DNA of 34,894 bases from Candidatus Portnoybacteria bacterium RBG_13_40_8. Lineage in GTDB: Bacteria; Patescibacteriota; Minisyncoccia; RBG-13-40-8-A. Within the stretch, counting starts at the first letter, position 1; each line of letters begins with the position of its first letter. The notes beneath the pieces were generated by a model. That model worked only from the letters and a program-made list of their open reading frames with translations. It was not told the DNA's origin and made no database searches. Shown in pieces: positions 5,917-29,231 of this stretch. The stretch spans positions 1-34,894 of the forward strand of contig MHMT01000020.1 of assembly GCA_001819435.1 (NCBI GenBank), in the 5' to 3' direction. The translations under genes and the position numbers were made by a program.

Positions 5917-6255
5917 TTACGTGCATGGGTTGCCCATCATATCAATTCCGCTTCTAACCAATAATCCTTGAACTAAAGCCAGAAGAAAAGCAGCTGCCAA
6001 GATTATGATAATACCAATAATGGCATTAATAATCAGGTTTTTAGCACTTCCTGCTTTTTCAGCATCACCACCAGAGGTTAAATAACGGATACCACCAAGA
6101 ATCAAAACAATTACCGCAATACCGAGACCAATCGCCAATAGAATCGTCTGGATTACTTCCAAAATATTACAAATAGCAACCACTGGATCTACCTGAGCGC
6201 TGGCAACTAACGGCAATGCCAAGGCAAACAACCCAATAACTAAATATTTTTTCAT
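5917..6255 (-). CDS. TrbC/VirB2-like (pilin-like) membrane protein
   Basis: 112 aa; signal peptide plus two TM helices; GLGIAVIVLILGGIRYLTSGGDAEKAGSAKNLIINAIIGIIIILAAAFLL pattern. Confidence 0.8.
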   Translation of the reverse strand: MKKYLVIGLFALALPLVASAQVDPVVAICNILEVIQTILLAIGLGIAVIVLILGGIRYLTSGGDAEKAGSAKNLIINAIIGIIIILAAAFLLALVQGLLVRSGIDMMGNPCT

Positions 6256-6331
6256 AGTCGTTTAAATAATTATTAATAATTATCTCTCGACCTTTAAGGT
6301 TTTTATAATTTTATTCTTCGATAATCAACCA

Positions 6332-6697
6332 TTAACCAAGTAGTCTATTGATTACCGTTTCTTGAAGTAAATTAATTATAAAAGAAGCACAAAAAATTAT
6401 AACCGCACCAATTAATCCATACATAATAATTTTTTTAGCATTTGTTACCTTGGATTCGTCCGATCCTGCGGTCATATACATAATACCGCCAACAATCACA
6501 ACAAGAATTGATAAACCTACGCCTAACCAATAAAGAATAAGTGCGACATCCATTATTAAATCGCATAATTTAGTAGCTTGCGGCCTACCCTCTGATTCAA
6601 GCGAATTACATGGATCTGGGGTAATCCATATCTGTGCCCTTACAATTACAGGCAAAGTCAGTAAAAATATTATAAAAATAAAAAATAATTTTTTCAT
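6332..6697 (-). CDS. TrbC/VirB2-like (pilin-like) membrane protein
   Basis: 121 aa; signal peptide; VVIVGGIMYMTAGSDESKVTNAKKIIMYGLIGAVIIFCASFIINLLQE. Confidence 0.8.
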   Translation of the reverse strand: MKKLFFIFIIFLLTLPVIVRAQIWITPDPCNSLESEGRPQATKLCDLIMDVALILYWLGVGLSILVVIVGGIMYMTAGSDESKVTNAKKIIMYGLIGAVIIFCASFIINLLQETVINRLLG

Positions 6698-6738
6698 GAT
6701 ATTAAAAATGAATATTTAATTATTATGATTTATGTTTT

Positions 6739-7077
6739 TTACAAAACCTCCCTAATCAAATCCACTATAAAATCTACTGCCAAAACCACGGCTACTCCAA
6801 TAATCGCGTAAAGCAAGGTGGCTTTTGCTCTTCTGATTTTATCTTCGTTGCCCAATGAAGTTAAATACTGAATTCCGCCAATAACGATCATCACTGTGGC
6901 AATGGGAATCACCAACACTTTCAATGCCTCGGTAATGCAGCTTATCAAACCGTCAATTGTCTCTACCGGTTGTCCGCCGCAGCGAAGAGGATTTGGCAAG
7001 CCCTGAGCTTTTATAACCAAAGGAACAGCTATTAAAATTGTACAACAAACAATTATAAAAAACAAGGCTTTTTTCAT
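6739..7077 (-). CDS. TrbC/VirB2-like (pilin-like) membrane protein
   Basis: 112 aa; IATVMIVIGGIQYLTSLGNEDKIRRAKATLLYAIIGVAVVLAVDFIVDLIRE. Confidence 0.8.
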   Translation of the reverse strand: MKKALFFIIVCCTILIAVPLVIKAQGLPNPLRCGGQPVETIDGLISCITEALKVLVIPIATVMIVIGGIQYLTSLGNEDKIRRAKATLLYAIIGVAVVLAVDFIVDLIREVL

Positions 7078-16535: not shown

Positions 16536-16901
16536 TTATTTCTTGCCTACTGATATTGGTCTCTGGATAAAATCAACCGAGACTGGTTTTAGACCCTCCT
16601 TGAAAATTTCATAAGTTTTCACTCCGTCGCCATCTCTTCTGCAACTATAAAGTCCGAAATAAAGAGAATTATATTCTGGATAAGTATGGATAGAGACATG
16701 GGATTCAGCCAACAAAACAACCAACGTATATCCTTTGGGACTAAATTCATAAGATGCCTTGTCCAAAATGTGAAAGCCGTCCTGTTTTAATGCATCCAAT
16801 AATTTTTCTTCTAATCCTTTGCCATCATCCAAAAGAACGGGGTCTATGCCGTACATTACGCAAGAAATTTCATTCCCAATAGAGGAAGATTTGTATCCCA
16901 T
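16536..16901 (-). CDS. speD: S-adenosylmethionine decarboxylase proenzyme
   Basis: 121 aa; LLAESHVSIHTYPE pyruvoyl-forming site, VDFIQRPISVG. Confidence 0.93.
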   Translation of the reverse strand: MGYKSSSIGNEISCVMYGIDPVLLDDGKGLEEKLLDALKQDGFHILDKASYEFSPKGYTLVVLLAESHVSIHTYPEYNSLYFGLYSCRRDGDGVKTYEIFKEGLKPVSVDFIQRPISVGKK

Positions 16902-23377: not shown

Positions 23378-23593
23378 TTACTCTACCATAATTACCTGCA
23401 CCGGACAACTGGTTGCTGCTTCTTTGTTACAGCCCAAATCAACTATTTCCAGTTCAAATTTATTTCCTCCGGCATCTTTAGCATCCTTTAAAACCGACTT
23501 TCCATCATCGCCCATATGCCAAAAAGCTGGACAAACTGCCACGCAAGTTCCGCAACCAATGCATTTGTCTCTTTGTTGAATAACTTTCGCCAT
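23378..23593 (-). CDS. 4Fe-4S ferredoxin
   Basis: 71 aa; KCIGCGTCVAVCPAFW and C-terminal SCPVQVI. Confidence 0.93.
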   Translation of the reverse strand: MAKVIQQRDKCIGCGTCVAVCPAFWHMGDDGKSVLKDAKDAGGNKFELEIVDLGCNKEAATSCPVQVIMVE

Positions 23594-23662
23594 AATATTT
23601 ATTACTTATTAATTGTTACTCATTACTTGATACTTATTATATTTTATTATAACCTATCTAAT

Positions 23663-25897
23663 GTGAAAAGGGCAATTATTTTTTCTCTAATCGTCCTCGG
23701 CATCACATCGATTGTCTCACAGTTGATTGTTATCCGAGAACTAAATACCAGTTTTTTTGGCAATGAATTTTTTATTGGCTGGACTCTTTTTTCTTGGTTA
23801 TTTTGGACGGGTATTGGCAGTTTACTTTTGAATAAATTGGTTAAAGAAGAAAATATCTTTAAACTTCTTGTTATATCCAATATTTTAATTCCCATATTTC
23901 TAAGTTTGGAAATATTCTTAATTCGTTTTTCCCGAATTTTAATCACCGCTCAAGCTGGCCAAATACCCAATTTAATTCCTGCGCTTTTGTATGGTTTTAT
24001 TGTTTTAGCTCCCTTATGCTTGATTTTGGGCCTACAATTCACGATTATCGCCAGATTGTGGAAATATAATTACCAAGGCATAGAATTAAGTCGAGCCATT
24101 GGAAAATCCTATATCTTAGAAACAATTGGTTTTATTATCGGGGGATTGGCTTTCGGTTATTTTTTAATTTTCGTTAATGAATTTTATGGTGCTTCAATTA
24201 TTGCTTTACTAAATTTATTAGCCGGGATTTTTATTTTGGCACATAGAAAAATTGCTGGATTAAAATTTTTATCAATTGCTTTTTTTGGTTTTTTTATTCT
24301 CATATTTATCTTTTCTCCTTTTATTGATTACCAAACCAATGTTTTCCGATTTCCAAACCAAACTTTAATTGAATCAAAAAATTCTCTTTACGGAAATATC
24401 GCTGTAACCCAATTAAAAGACCAGTATAATTTTTATGAAAGCGGACTATTCCTGGGGACCAATAAAGAAAATATTTTTAATGAGTGTGTTCATATTCCGC
24501 TTTTATATCATCAAAATCCCAAAAATATACTTTTAATCGGCAATGGTTTTAATGGGATTATAAAAGAAATCTTAAAACATAATCCGGATAAGATTTATTA
24601 TTTGGAATTAGACTCTGAATTGATTAAAACTACCGAAAAATATTTTTCTAATAACTTATCGGTTAATTTGAATGACAAACGAGTTGAAATAATTAATCTG
24701 GATGCCAGATATTTTTTAAAAAATAGTGCGGAAAAATTTGATCTAATAATCGTAAACCTACCAAATCCCTCGACTGCCCTGATAAATAGATTTTACACCG
24801 ATGAATTCTATAAAGAAGCAAAAATTCACTTATCCGAAAACGGGATTTTATCAACCTATTTAAAATTATCAGCCAATTATTTTGGGCCAGAAATAGAAAA
24901 TTTAGATACTTCTTTATATTTGGCTCTTAAAAATAATTTTGATTCCGTTTTAATCTTGCCCGAAGACCAGCATTTATTTATTGCTTCCCAAAATCAGCTT
25001 GATAATAATCCGGATTCACTCATCCAAAGACTTGAAGAAAGGGAAATAAAAAGTAATTTTGTAAATGAAGAATATATTAAATACAGATTAAACAATGACA
25101 GGGTTCGAACTTTAAATGATTTATTGGATAAAAATCAAACAGCCAAAATAAATCAAGACCAACTGCCAATTAGTTGTTATTATAATTTTATTTATTGGAT
25201 ATCGTCTTTTTATCCCAATTTAGCCAAAATTTTTGCTTCATTAGGAGAATTAAAATTTGGATGGATAATTGTTATGGCTATTTTTGGATCTTTGATATTC
25301 TTTCACGGCCCGCGAAAAAAAATTCCTCTTGTTATGGCAATTGCGGGATTTTCTTTAATGGCAATTGAAATAATAATTATTTTCGGGTTTCAGATTTTTT
25401 ACGGATATTTATATTACAAAATTTCTCTCATCATCACCGCCTTAATGACAGGAATGACTCTAGGTTCCTGGCTGGCAAATAGAAAATTAGAGCAAAAAAC
25501 AATCAAATCTATAATCAAAATTCACGCTTTAATAATTGTCTTCTCGCTGATTCTTTTATTCGGATTTTATTCTTTATTTAGAATTTCGCTCAAATCATCA
25601 ATTTTTATAGAAATAACTTTCTTGATTGCCGCTGGTCTAATTGGTGCAATTGTTGGTTTTGAATTTCCGATTATTAATAAATTATATTTGGAACAAAAAA
25701 CCCTCCTTCGCTCTTCGAGCTACGGAGGGCAGGCAGGTATCATTTATGGCGCGGACTTAATCGGTTCTTGCCTTGGCGCTTTTCTGGTTAGTATTTTTCT
25801 TGTTCCAATCTTCGGTATTTATCAAGCTTTAATCTTTTTGGGAATTTTGAATTTTATAATTTTAATCTACTTAACACTCTCTTCGTCAAAAACTTGA
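23663..25897 (+). CDS. Fused membrane / spermidine-synthase-like protein
   Basis: GTG start; N- and C-terminal multi-TM blocks flank a Rossmann domain (NILLIGNGFNGIIKEILKHNPDKIYYLELD...RFYTDEFYKEAKIHLSENGI) typical of fused MFS/spermidine synthases. Confidence 0.85.
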   Translation: MKRAIIFSLIVLGITSIVSQLIVIRELNTSFFGNEFFIGWTLFSWLFWTGIGSLLLNKLVKEENIFKLLVISNILIPIFLSLEIFLIRFSRILITAQAGQIPNLIPALLYGFIVLAPLCLILGLQFTIIARLWKYNYQGIELSRAIGKSYILETIGFIIGGLAFGYFLIFVNEFYGASIIALLNLLAGIFILAHRKIAGLKFLSIAFFGFFILIFIFSPFIDYQTNVFRFPNQTLIESKNSLYGNIAVTQLKDQYNFYESGLFLGTNKENIFNECVHIPLLYHQNPKNILLIGNGFNGIIKEILKHNPDKIYYLELDSELIKTTEKYFSNNLSVNLNDKRVEIINLDARYFLKNSAEKFDLIIVNLPNPSTALINRFYTDEFYKEAKIHLSENGILSTYLKLSANYFGPEIENLDTSLYLALKNNFDSVLILPEDQHLFIASQNQLDNNPDSLIQRLEEREIKSNFVNEEYIKYRLNNDRVRTLNDLLDKNQTAKINQDQLPISCYYNFIYWISSFYPNLAKIFASLGELKFGWIIVMAIFGSLIFFHGPRKKIPLVMAIAGFSLMAIEIIIIFGFQIFYGYLYYKISLIITALMTGMTLGSWLANRKLEQKTIKSIIKIHALIIVFSLILLFGFYSLFRISLKSSIFIEITFLIAAGLIGAIVGFEFPIINKLYLEQKTLLRSSSYGGQAGIIYGADLIGSCLGAFLVSIFLVPIFGIYQALIFLGILNFIILIYLTLSSSKT

Positions 25898-27396
25898 GCA
25901 GTAAAAACGTAAAGGTCCGTATCCTCGTCTTTCCAACAGTCGGCTGATAAGCCGGCTTTTTGCGTACATAAAATACTCAAAAATGTATCTCTGTCCCAGT
26001 TATTTTCTGTAGCTACTTGAGGTAGAAATACCCCTGAACGTGAACCTCTGACAATTTTTACTCCGTGTTTGCCGATTTCTACGTCTTTGTATGAATCAAC
26101 TTTTTTCAGCGGGCTTAAAACTGAAATTTTATATTCCAATAATGGTAATTCTTCCTTGGTCACCGGCATAAATCTTGGATCATTAATTGCCGAAGAAATA
26201 ACTGTTTCGGCCACAACTTGATATAAAGGAATATCCGGCTCGAACACACCGATACAGCCCCTTAATTCGCCATGCTCTTTCAAGGTCACGAAAGCGCCCA
26301 TTGGTTTGTTTAGAAGCGAGTCGTCTTCTTCAAATTTCAAAATCTTTCCCTCTTTGAGATATGATTCTAAGGATTGTTTGGCAATCTCCAATAATCTTTT
26401 CTGTTGTTCTTTGTTCAGCTCGTTCTCTGATTTTTCGGAAGTAAAAACAATTGCCGTATAACCGACAACCTGATTTTTTTCTCCGCTTACATCACCTGAA
26501 TTAGCATATTTTAATAATTGTGATTTTTTGCCTTCCATTAGGCCCATTACTACCTCAATCGCATCATGACCGCAAGCACAGGTTTGTAGGTTTTCTATGC
26601 CTTCATTTTCTAATTTATTTATAGCTTCTCTAAGTTTCTCTCTTTCGCCAGCCAAAATTGATTCAATTACTTTACCATCACTATATTTGGCATCATCATA
26701 TTTGGGATAATGAGACAAATCAGTGCTGGCAATAAGTAAAACATTTTCATTCATTAATGGTTTCAAGGCATTAATTAAAATATCACTCGCGCCTGGCTGA
26801 TTGCCTAAAATAATCGGTACAATTTTCCAACCCGAGACTGATAAGACCATTTGTAAAAACGGCAATTGAACCTCTAGGGAATGTTCCTCTGAATGGGCGC
26901 TTTCTTTAAAATATATTTTGTCATTCGCCTCCATTAATTTTTGGGCAAATTCTGCGTCAATTTCAACTTTGCCAAGAGGTGTTTCAAAATATCCTTTGGG
27001 ATAAATCGAAGCGCCATCAAAATATTCCCGATGACTATTACCGATCAATATAACTGTATCTATATTTTTTCCTACCAATGCTTTATATCCATATGCCGCC
27101 ACTTGACCAGAATAAACATAACCAGCATGAGGAACAATCAAAGCACGGATATACGGATCTAACTTTGGCAATTCTGCTTTAGTCAAAAAATTATCAATCA
27201 TTGAACTTAATTCTTCTTTTGAACCAGGATAAAATTGCCCAGCCACAACCGCTTCGCGCACCGGTCCCTCATCTTTTTGAATGTTATTTTTATTTCCTTC
27301 TTGTTTTTTCATAAATTCCAATTTTCCCTGGTCTATAACCAAAGCCGCTCCAATAACCAACAATATAAATATAACAAAAATTATTACTTTTTTCAT
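25867..27396 (-). CDS. AmmeMemoRadiSam system Memo-AMMECR1 fusion protein with N-terminal TM anchor
   Basis: 509 aa; Memo part VREAVVAGQFYPGSKEELSSMI...LIVPHAGYVYSGQVAAYGYKAL; AMMECR1 part KPMGAFVTLKEHGELRGCIGVFEPDIPLYQVVAETVISSAINDPRF; N-terminal MKKVIIFVIFILLVIGAALVI. Confidence 0.93.
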   Translation of the reverse strand: MKKVIIFVIFILLVIGAALVIDQGKLEFMKKQEGNKNNIQKDEGPVREAVVAGQFYPGSKEELSSMIDNFLTKAELPKLDPYIRALIVPHAGYVYSGQVAAYGYKALVGKNIDTVILIGNSHREYFDGASIYPKGYFETPLGKVEIDAEFAQKLMEANDKIYFKESAHSEEHSLEVQLPFLQMVLSVSGWKIVPIILGNQPGASDILINALKPLMNENVLLIASTDLSHYPKYDDAKYSDGKVIESILAGEREKLREAINKLENEGIENLQTCACGHDAIEVVMGLMEGKKSQLLKYANSGDVSGEKNQVVGYTAIVFTSEKSENELNKEQQKRLLEIAKQSLESYLKEGKILKFEEDDSLLNKPMGAFVTLKEHGELRGCIGVFEPDIPLYQVVAETVISSAINDPRFMPVTKEELPLLEYKISVLSPLKKVDSYKDVEIGKHGVKIVRGSRSGVFLPQVATENNWDRDTFLSILCTQKAGLSADCWKDEDTDLYVFTAQVFDEESVK

Positions 27397-27404
27397 TTAT
27401 TTTC

Positions 27405-28517
27405 TTATTTCCAAATCCCGGGAATTACTTCACCATCCAAACATTTGCCATCAACTAAATTATTGGCTTGAATCATATAACCCCGTCTTTCAATGGCAAT
27501 CTCTTTTGACCCCGGACAATAAGTTGATTCTCCTTCGGGATAAATAATGTTTCCGGTATAAACAAATTTTAATCCCTCTTCCATGGCAACCTGCCTGGCT
27601 TTAATTATTGTTTCCGACGGAGTTGACGGCAAATTCTGTAATTTATATTCCGGATGAAAGGCCGAAAAATGAAGCGGTACATCGTCGCCCACATTTTCTT
27701 TTATCCATTTTGCCATTTCTCTTATTTCTTCTTTGCTTTCATTTTCTCCGGGAATCAATAAATTCACAATTTCTAGCCAAACACCGCTATTTTTAATAGT
27801 CTTTATTGTTTCCAGAACCGGCGCCAAATGACCGCCGGTAAATTTTTGATAAAATTCTTCTTTAAACGCTTTTAAATCAACTTTATAAGCATCGATATAG
27901 GGTAATAATTCTCTTAATGGTTCAAGGTTAATATAACCGTTGCTCACTACTACGGTTCTTAATCCTTTTTCTTTGGCTAATCTTGCCACATCATAAACAT
28001 ATTCATAATAAACGATTGGTTCGTTGTAAGTAAAAGCAATTACTTCGCTCCCGCTTTGTAACGCATCGTTGACTACCTGCTCTGGTGTCATTTTGGTTGT
28101 TTCCACCTCCCAGGGAAAAACCTGAGAAATATCCCAATTCTGACAAAAGGAACAGCGCATATTGCAACCGGTTGTAGAAATTGAATAAGCCTTGGCTCCG
28201 GGCAAAAAATGAAAAAAGGGCTTTTTTTCAATTGGGTCGACATGCTGGGCAGCCACATTGCCGTAATTTAAAGAATAAAGCTCGCCATCAATATTTTTCC
28301 TGGCTTTACACAAACCAATCTGACCCCTAGATAAGATGCAGCGATTAGGACAAAGCCCACACTGAACCATATTGCCAGATAATTTCTCAAAAAATTTCGC
28401 CCGATAAAAATCTTCGGCATTATTCGCCTCTTTGGCTCCTTTTTCCCGTGTAAAAATCAAATACCCGGCCAGGCCGACTATCAAAATTAAAAACAAAATG
28501 GCAAAAAACTTTTTCAT
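27405..28517 (-). CDS. AmmeMemoRadiSam system radical SAM enzyme with N-terminal TM anchor
   Basis: 370 aa; CGLCPNRCILSRGQIGLCKAR, TTGCNMRCSFCQNWDIS radical SAM motif; N-terminal MKKFFAILFLILIVGLAGYLIF. Confidence 0.94.
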   Translation of the reverse strand: MKKFFAILFLILIVGLAGYLIFTREKGAKEANNAEDFYRAKFFEKLSGNMVQCGLCPNRCILSRGQIGLCKARKNIDGELYSLNYGNVAAQHVDPIEKKPFFHFLPGAKAYSISTTGCNMRCSFCQNWDISQVFPWEVETTKMTPEQVVNDALQSGSEVIAFTYNEPIVYYEYVYDVARLAKEKGLRTVVVSNGYINLEPLRELLPYIDAYKVDLKAFKEEFYQKFTGGHLAPVLETIKTIKNSGVWLEIVNLLIPGENESKEEIREMAKWIKENVGDDVPLHFSAFHPEYKLQNLPSTPSETIIKARQVAMEEGLKFVYTGNIIYPEGESTYCPGSKEIAIERRGYMIQANNLVDGKCLDGEVIPGIWK

Positions 28518-28519
28518 AT

Positions 28520-29155
28520 TTAAATAGCATGAAATAAGGTCAGACCTCTAATAATATAATAAATCCCGTAAGTTAAAAAGGCAAAACCAACAATTAAACC
28601 AGCAATTCTGGCGATCAAGCGAAATTCCTTCATTTTTCCCAAAAATCCCAAAAAAGTAACCGGCAGAAAATAAAGTGTTGTCCCCAAAAAGAACATCAAA
28701 AAATAAATTATTCCTTTAAAAACGCTGTGTAAGGAAAAAACATAAGCCAAAGACATTAAAAACGGCGGACAGATATTTATGCCCATCAGAAATCCCATCA
28801 AAAGCGGTGATTTTTCCCTGAATTTAATATATTTTGATGAACAAAAAATGCCCTTGGGCTTTAAAAGACCCAAGGCATAAAAAATCAAAACAACTGCCAA
28901 AACCATCAGAGAAATAATCAAAATCAAATTTACTGCTTGATTGGAAATTTTTTCTCCCAAATAGCCAAAAATTGCGCCAAAAAGAATATAGCCACCTAAA
29001 CGACCGAGAATAAATTCCAAAATCACTTTAAAATTCTTGGCTAGTTTCCTTTCTTCGGAGACTAAATATGGCGCTATAAAGGGCACGCAATAAGTAAAGC
29101 AAAAGATTCCAGTGGAAATCCCCAAAAGAAATGGTTGAATGAGAAAATCTTCCAT
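28520..29155 (-). CDS. CcdA/DsbD-like (or UreH/TauE-SafE-annotated) six-TM membrane protein
   Basis: 211 aa; CFTYCVPFIAPYL and GINICPPFLMSLAYVF cysteine-proline motifs in TM helices; 2-nt spacing from radical SAM gene. Confidence 0.75.
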   Translation of the reverse strand: MEDFLIQPFLLGISTGIFCFTYCVPFIAPYLVSEERKLAKNFKVILEFILGRLGGYILFGAIFGYLGEKISNQAVNLILIISLMVLAVVLIFYALGLLKPKGIFCSSKYIKFREKSPLLMGFLMGINICPPFLMSLAYVFSLHSVFKGIIYFLMFFLGTTLYFLPVTFLGFLGKMKEFRLIARIAGLIVGFAFLTYGIYYIIRGLTLFHAI

Positions 29156-29231
29156 ATATCCTAAATTAGCACAATTTTTGCTATAATAATAGGGTAATAA
29201 TTAAAATCGCCCCGTTAATCGGGGCAAATCT

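Follow-up and report, generated by a model that had tools for sequence, protein, structure and literature searches.

AmmeMemoRadiSam (amrS/amrB/amrA) is a three-part system made up of a radical S-adenosylmethionine (SAM) enzyme, a Memo protein and an AMMECR1 protein, with human relatives in MEMO1 and AMMECR1. To our knowledge its function is not known, and in the literature that we searched, in which subscription papers were mostly out of reach, the system received passing mentions only. Radical SAM enzymes require SAM, an iron-sulfur (Fe-S) cluster and a low-potential electron, all of which are thought to be cytoplasmic, and the same search, with the same restriction on subscription papers, yielded no account of exported, periplasmic or membrane-bound radical SAM enzymes. 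Here we describe a cluster of this type on a 34,894-nucleotide (nt) stretch (the window) of contig MHMT01000020.1 from Candidatus Portnoybacteria bacterium RBG_13_40_8, whose genome comprises 0.69 Mb in 33 contigs and, judged from its size and gene content, resembles those of the candidate phyla radiation (CPR). As in the known system, all three families score over their cut-offs, the radical SAM motif is intact, and Memo and AMMECR1 are linked. The window version differs in that the enzymes are predicted to be exported and tethered to the membrane, that Memo is fused to AMMECR1, that the locus is tied to a spermidine synthase (SpdSyn)-like protein with 14 transmembrane (TM) helices, and that the exported version often shares a genome with a signal-less copy. 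We consider it likely that the cluster represents a form of AmmeMemoRadiSam that is attached to the membrane and located outside the cytoplasm, with the parts, export, linkage and topology read from sequence evidence and the SAM supply, electron route and substrate inferred. The parts come from known families, and the novelty is the compartment and the fourth component.

Gene order and conservation of the module

The minus-strand operon runs from a DsbD_2/CcdA-like gene through the radical SAM gene to the Memo-AMMECR1 gene with intergenic gaps of 2 and 8 nt (Table 1). An earlier interpretation based on the window's letters alone (the sequence-only reading) had proposed these three adjacent genes, and all are present with profile scores over the cut-offs; the SpdSyn-like membrane gene that it described as convergent with the trio is so indeed, the 3' ends of this plus-strand gene and of Memo-AMMECR1 overlapping by 31 nt. 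Omnitrophota locus L002, the closest in that phylum, contains the window's four genes in identical order and orientation, which, together with the recurrence of the module across phyla, argues against a chance cluster and suggests that the module has probably moved between phyla as one unit. It is hardly credible that these are unrelated neighbors brought together by accident; such an explanation would suit the Aminicenantes, where Memo-AMMECR1 is not beside the radical SAM-SpdSyn pair, but it is contradicted by the linkage, the co-occurrence described below and the gene order that CPR and Omnitrophota genomes share.

Predicted export of the radical SAM and Memo-AMMECR1 proteins

The Lys-rich N-terminal anchors that had been noticed on both proteins are real by hydropathy, with means of 2.84 and 3.52 over 17 residues; the anchor of the Memo-AMMECR1 protein is MKKVIIFVIFILLVIGAALVI. 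The radical SAM enzyme has a single anchor at residues 4-22 or so, with a net charge of +2 before it (MKK) and -1 after it, and the residues that follow are mixed in charge (3 K/R, 4 D/E). There is no RR in this N-terminus and the anchor is of the Sec type; the best TatC score in the window's genome was 17.8 bits, under the cut-off.

We compared 80 related loci from Omnitrophota, Elusimicrobiota, Aminicenantes, Nitrospirota, Chloroflexota, Zixibacteria, KSB1, WOR-3, Latescibacterota, Acidobacteriota and others, assigning signals by motif and hydropathy. The homologs are spread over about ten phyla, and their radical SAM N-termini mostly carry a Tat (twin-arginine translocation) signal (e.g., MDRRDFLKCSLSGCSLCLLPGISA) or a Sec-type signal or anchor. 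Most Memo-AMMECR1 proteins linked to these loci likewise have an N-terminal hydrophobic signal, which was found in 46 of 55 fused homologs versus 0 of 14 unfused ones, and some carry a lipobox. A TatC profile searched in 52 genomes showed that the exported radical SAM enzyme is Tat-type in 24/28 TatC-bearing genomes and Sec-type in 13/15 TatC-lacking genomes (p=5e-6; this and the other p-values are indicative only, related genomes not being independent). The type of signal thus follows the presence of TatC, indicating that export is kept while the route changes.

Most of these genomes contain further TIGR04337 copies, and the second copies that we retrieved are signal-less, save for a few with Tat signals that again lie beside SpdSyn. 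A tree of 148 sequences inferred by a quick method gathers the exported forms into a single group with 83 members (49 with Tat signals, 20 with Sec signals and 14 without either; 91% SH-aLRT), in which locus L107 and L002 are nearest to the window. Because this group was chosen in part by similarity to the window, same-genome paralogs provide a useful control, and nearly all of them are signal-less and placed outside the group. The window's genome itself encodes a second TIGR04337-family copy without an anchor (L106 4798-5691, G000 contig 7); this unanchored amrS paralog adjoins IscS-, IscU-, glutaredoxin-, thioredoxin reductase- and thioredoxin-like genes. The genome has one Memo and one AMMECR1 only, both in the fusion described here.

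A different kind of evidence comes from the Chloroflexota, where three radical SAM enzymes combine a Tat signal with a CxxCH and CHxxH insertion directly before CxxCPxxC, and a protein search of a sample of that phylum added two more, for a total of five. ResB and CcsA adjoin all five (Pfam matches for L022 and L016), and ResB lies within 3.5 kb of none of 134 other loci (0/134 versus 5/5, p=2e-9). System II attaches heme c on the outer side of the cytoplasmic membrane, so that CxxCH beside ResB/CcsA constitutes a separate line of evidence for export and points to a possible heme-c radical SAM enzyme in this phylum.

Taken together, the homologs are strong evidence for an extracytoplasmic system, and the earlier proposal that the catalytic domains lie outside the cytoplasm is strongly supported by the Tat signals, the switch between Sec and Tat with TatC, the exported Memo-AMMECR1 and the CxxCH enzymes beside ResB/CcsA. 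The conventional explanation, that the anchored enzymes face the cytoplasm (N-out/C-in) and that the export signals of relatives are misleading for this genome, would accommodate the mixed charge after the window anchor and the signal-less SpdSyn-linked enzymes of Nitrospirota and Omnitrophota considered below. It conflicts with the orthologs that have Tat signals and CxxCH/ResB, with the MKK before and the acidic balance after the anchor, and with the lipobox of some Memo-AMMECR1 homologs, and we regard it as very unlikely.

A SpdSyn-like membrane protein as fourth component

By linkage and co-occurrence, the 14-TM SpdSyn-like protein is the most consistent fourth, core component of the system, tracking the exported enzyme and not the cytoplasmic one. 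At well-flanked loci its gene is near 31/42 exported versus 6/57 signal-less radical SAM genes (p=1e-10), and those six signal-less genes all fall inside the exported tree group. Among 93 CPR genomes, only that of the window and G006 encode the full-length form, and these are the sole two with an anchored enzyme (2/2 versus 0/91). We also sampled 145 genomes across the phylum Omnitrophota, in which SpdSyn is present in 70 of the 71 genomes with at least two radical SAM copies versus 14 of the 74 others (p=7e-26), and 53 of 85 SpdSyn genes are at most 5 kb from a radical SAM gene. The enzymes checked in SpdSyn-lacking genomes are signal-less, except for one flagged via an upstream start and an exported copy in G280, a genome without a SpdSyn match. 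The sequence-only reading had taken this gene to be just a convergent neighbor; the convergence holds, but the linkage and co-occurrence show a core part.

Hydropathy in 38 homologs and an AlphaFold model (predicted local distance difference test [pLDDT] 88.6, predicted TM-score [pTM] 0.90) agree on seven TM helices before and seven after the domain. In 38/38 homologs, 13-24 K+R residues lie in the loops on the N-terminal (inner) side versus 1-5 in the opposite (outer) loops, a distribution that places the domain outside; on this charge distribution and the model, the nucleoside-binding domain is predicted to be extracytoplasmic. The top Foldseek matches are aminopropyltransferases (1uir, E 3e-12, TM-score 0.73 by target), and the ribose/adenine motifs ExD and D-G/A-R are kept. 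SpeE structures have a catalytic Asp pair in DxxDP and a further Asp in GGGDG. Aligned to the Thermotoga maritima protein 1inl, the window protein has NxxNP in place of DxxDP (IVNLPNP versus IIDSTDP) and has lost the GGGDG Asp (GNGFNG versus GGGDGG), and the family alignment has N/D-x-x-E/D-P at the DxxDP position. The best match to an NCBIfam aminopropyltransferase equivalog remained under the cut-off (179 versus 472 bits). The simplest reading is a nucleoside-binding domain that has lost aminopropyl transfer. Membrane or fused MFS (major facilitator superfamily)-spermidine synthases (PRK03612, NF037959) resemble the window protein in combining TM helices with a SpdSyn-fold domain; it differs from them in its 7+7 TM arrangement around the domain, the changed Asp residues, the unmet NCBIfam cut-offs and its association with exported radical SAM enzymes.

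The protein could instead be a true alkyl- or aminopropyltransferase that uses decarboxylated SAM to modify an envelope molecule outside the cytoplasm, with further changes to the product made by the radical SAM enzyme and Memo-AMMECR1. The whole aminopropyltransferase fold and a SpeD (S-adenosylmethionine decarboxylase) gene 7 kb away in the window (16536-16901, minus strand) would fit such a role, but the replaced DxxDP Asp, the absent GGGDG Asp, the unmet cut-offs and another, 7-TM SpdSyn in the same genome (contig 17, L220 4870-6354) make it unlikely.

The radical SAM enzyme and its possible redox partners

In an alignment of 49 homologs, both the CxxxCxxC motif (C118/C122/C125) and an N-terminal C-x2-C-x3-C-x9-C motif are invariant, and CxxxCxxC is present in all radical SAM copies, exported or not. 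The four N-terminal cysteines (C53, C56, C60 and C70) perhaps bind a second cluster. Of a C-terminal Cys-pair motif, TYCPxC...GKCxxC, the window enzyme retains only half (CPGS, CLDG; residues 334-362, positions 27405-27520, minus strand). AlphaFold predicts the barrel to be intact (pLDDT 95.4), and among solved structures it comes closest to the pyruvate formate-lyase (PFL)-activating enzyme 3cb8, a structure that contains AdoMet and peptide (TM-score 0.80 by target). Compared with that activase, the window enzyme adds the N-terminal and C-terminal cysteine regions, falls under the cut-off of the PFL activase equivalog TIGR02493 (78.5 versus 231.75 bits) and is predicted to be exported.

The DsbD_2 protein shares with CcdA/DsbD (PF13386) a multi-TM architecture with cysteines in TM1 (C-x3-C-x-P) and in a later TM helix (C-P-P/PC-x-P), both conserved in alignment, and is a candidate trans-membrane thiol electron relay. 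In contrast to CcdA/DsbD, the window cluster has no thioredoxin-like partner, and the linkage to radical SAM is found in some lineages only: L002, L107, L004, L005, L008, L011, L017 and several Omnitrophota, confining it to Omnitrophota, Elusimicrobiota and two CPR genomes. The suggestion that the CcdA/DsbD-like gene is a key partner therefore holds for some lineages but does not extend to conserved linkage in general, as other redox proteins occupy this place elsewhere, namely ResB/CcsA with the heme-c site, a nitroreductase, a b561-nitroreductase fusion or a NapH-like polyferredoxin; in G006 there is also a small membrane protein resembling Sdh_cyt (a weak match, under the cut-off). It looks as though a constant core is served by membrane redox proteins that can replace one another. 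NapH/NosR-type polyferredoxins (Fer4_5), absent from the window, are a possible electron donor beside the Omnitrophota split-anchor subtype described below. The nearby ferredoxin that had been counted with the cluster is present, but no consistent ferredoxin occurs beside the module in homologous loci, and we rejected it as a module part.

These redox neighbors (heme c, nitroreductase, NapH-like and DsbD_2) also suggest electron transfer, and the enzymes might be exported without SAM chemistry taking place outside, the radical SAM protein serving as an Fe-S electron carrier or structural partner while Memo-AMMECR1 does the work. The lack of any known extracytoplasmic SAM pool and the occurrence of signal-less subtypes would agree with this. 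We nevertheless judge it improbable, given that every copy keeps CxxxCxxC, that the predicted barrel is intact with its PFL activase-like fold, and that a nucleoside-binding SpdSyn protein tracks the exported form.

Proposed function and evidence against an outside location

We propose that after export the radical SAM enzyme and Memo-AMMECR1 remain attached to the outer side of the cytoplasmic membrane, the window proteins through Sec anchors and those of relatives through Tat or lipoprotein signals, and that the SpdSyn-like protein holds its aminopropyltransferase-derived nucleoside-binding domain on the same face, where it may supply or handle SAM or its nucleoside product. Electrons would come from a membrane redox protein that differs between lineages, in the window the DsbD_2/CcdA-like protein; the radical SAM enzyme, with its PFL activase-like fold, would generate a radical on its substrate, either a protein or a component of the envelope. 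Memo-AMMECR1 would complete or use the modification. Extended to many phyla as a full SAM-dependent radical pathway outside the membrane, in which the 14-TM SpdSyn-derived protein moves or manages SAM and lineage-specific relays bring electrons, the scheme becomes tentative.

Several points weigh against an extracytoplasmic system. We know of no availability of SAM and low-potential electrons outside the cytoplasm and of no experiment in which activity there was seen. In Tat-less genomes an Fe-S enzyme would have to cross unfolded via Sec. Signals were assigned by motif and hydropathy alone. Among the Omnitrophota with fewer than two radical SAM copies, SpdSyn is found in 13/40 genomes with one copy and in 1/34 with none. 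In the CPR relative G004 (L237), Memo-AMMECR1 is anchored and the sole radical SAM enzyme is signal-less; in the close CPR relative G002 (L241) the fusion is unanchored, and the two are possibly stages of loss. Finally, a subtype of SpdSyn-linked radical SAM enzymes, comprising those of Nitrospirota and about a third of the linked Omnitrophota sampled, is signal-less and begins right at the first cysteine motif, so that topology is not uniform, and in these lineages the enzyme may work inside. Such enzymes are hard to reconcile with a Memo-AMMECR1 and a SpdSyn domain that face outward, and they provide the strongest argument against placing the system outside throughout. The sequence-only reading had looked to anchorless homologs as evidence against it; most homologs do have signals, but this subtype lacks them.

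For the Nitrospirota signal-less enzymes no anchor was found, including a tail anchor, which was sought. In eight Omnitrophota loci (L288, L290, L297, L298, L300, L316, L318 and L319), an upstream overlapping or adjoining open reading frame (ORF) ends near the enzyme start, and most of these ORFs encode a hydrophobic stretch followed by the HPAKYWK-type segment that the enzyme lacks; for L288 and L316 this ORF is the C-terminus of a NapH-like protein, the tail of which carries the segment absent from the enzyme's N-terminus. We rejected a programmed frameshift joining the split anchor ORF to the radical SAM gene, because the varied overlaps (ATGA, TAATG, ATGAATAA or spaced) would require shifts in both directions.

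Other features of the window and related loci

Alignment with relatives (e.g., locus L202, MKKVFIFSFIVLGISS) indicates GTG 23663 as the likely start of the SpdSyn-like gene; the ORF can open at ATG 23516, but the alignment favors the former, so that the ferredoxin gene is divergent from the SpdSyn-like gene without overlap. Elsewhere in the window, 5917-7077 (minus strand) encodes, in tandem, three short secreted proteins that have two hydrophobic stretches and resemble TrbC/VirB2-type pilins. In Aminicenantes and relatives, DUF362 and DUF6599 recur beside the Tat-type radical SAM-SpdSyn pair (L050 3959-4852 and 2932-3846). An anchored Memo-AMMECR1 adjoins a radical SAM gene on a Woesearchaeota contig (L049 841-2382), and the anchored form may thus reach DPANN archaea.

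Table 1. Features of the cluster in the window and of related loci
Feature	Position	Strand	Evidence or context
DsbD_2/CcdA-like multi-TM protein	28520-29155	-	Pfam PF13386, 81.8 bits (cut-off 24.9)
Radical SAM enzyme, amrS type, N-terminally anchored	27405-28517	-	TIGR04337, 386 bits (cut-off 220)
Memo-AMMECR1 fusion (amrB-amrA), anchored	25867-27396	-	TIGR04336, 260 bits (cut-off 26); TIGR04335, 179 bits (cut-off 99)
14-TM SpdSyn-like protein (7 TM + domain + 7 TM)	23663-25897	+	PF01564, 83 bits
Small one-cluster ferredoxin	23378-23593	-	ORF with CxxCxxC and distal C
Terminator-like hairpin between efp and operon	29207-29227	-	Consensus scan only
CxxCH radical SAM loci	L016 4481-5779; L021; L022; L352; L353		Tat signal, ResB/CcsA adjacent
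NapH-like polyferredoxins beside signal-less radical SAM genes	L288 1-642; L316; L298 1770-2300; L318 1843-2301; L319 3-446		

Implications for AmmeMemoRadiSam

The SpdSyn-like protein offers a testable fourth component of the system, and cells that hold both an inside and an outside copy allow the two forms of AmmeMemoRadiSam to be compared naturally. If a conserved radical SAM enzyme is indeed exported, SAM would have to be present beyond the membrane or be delivered there.

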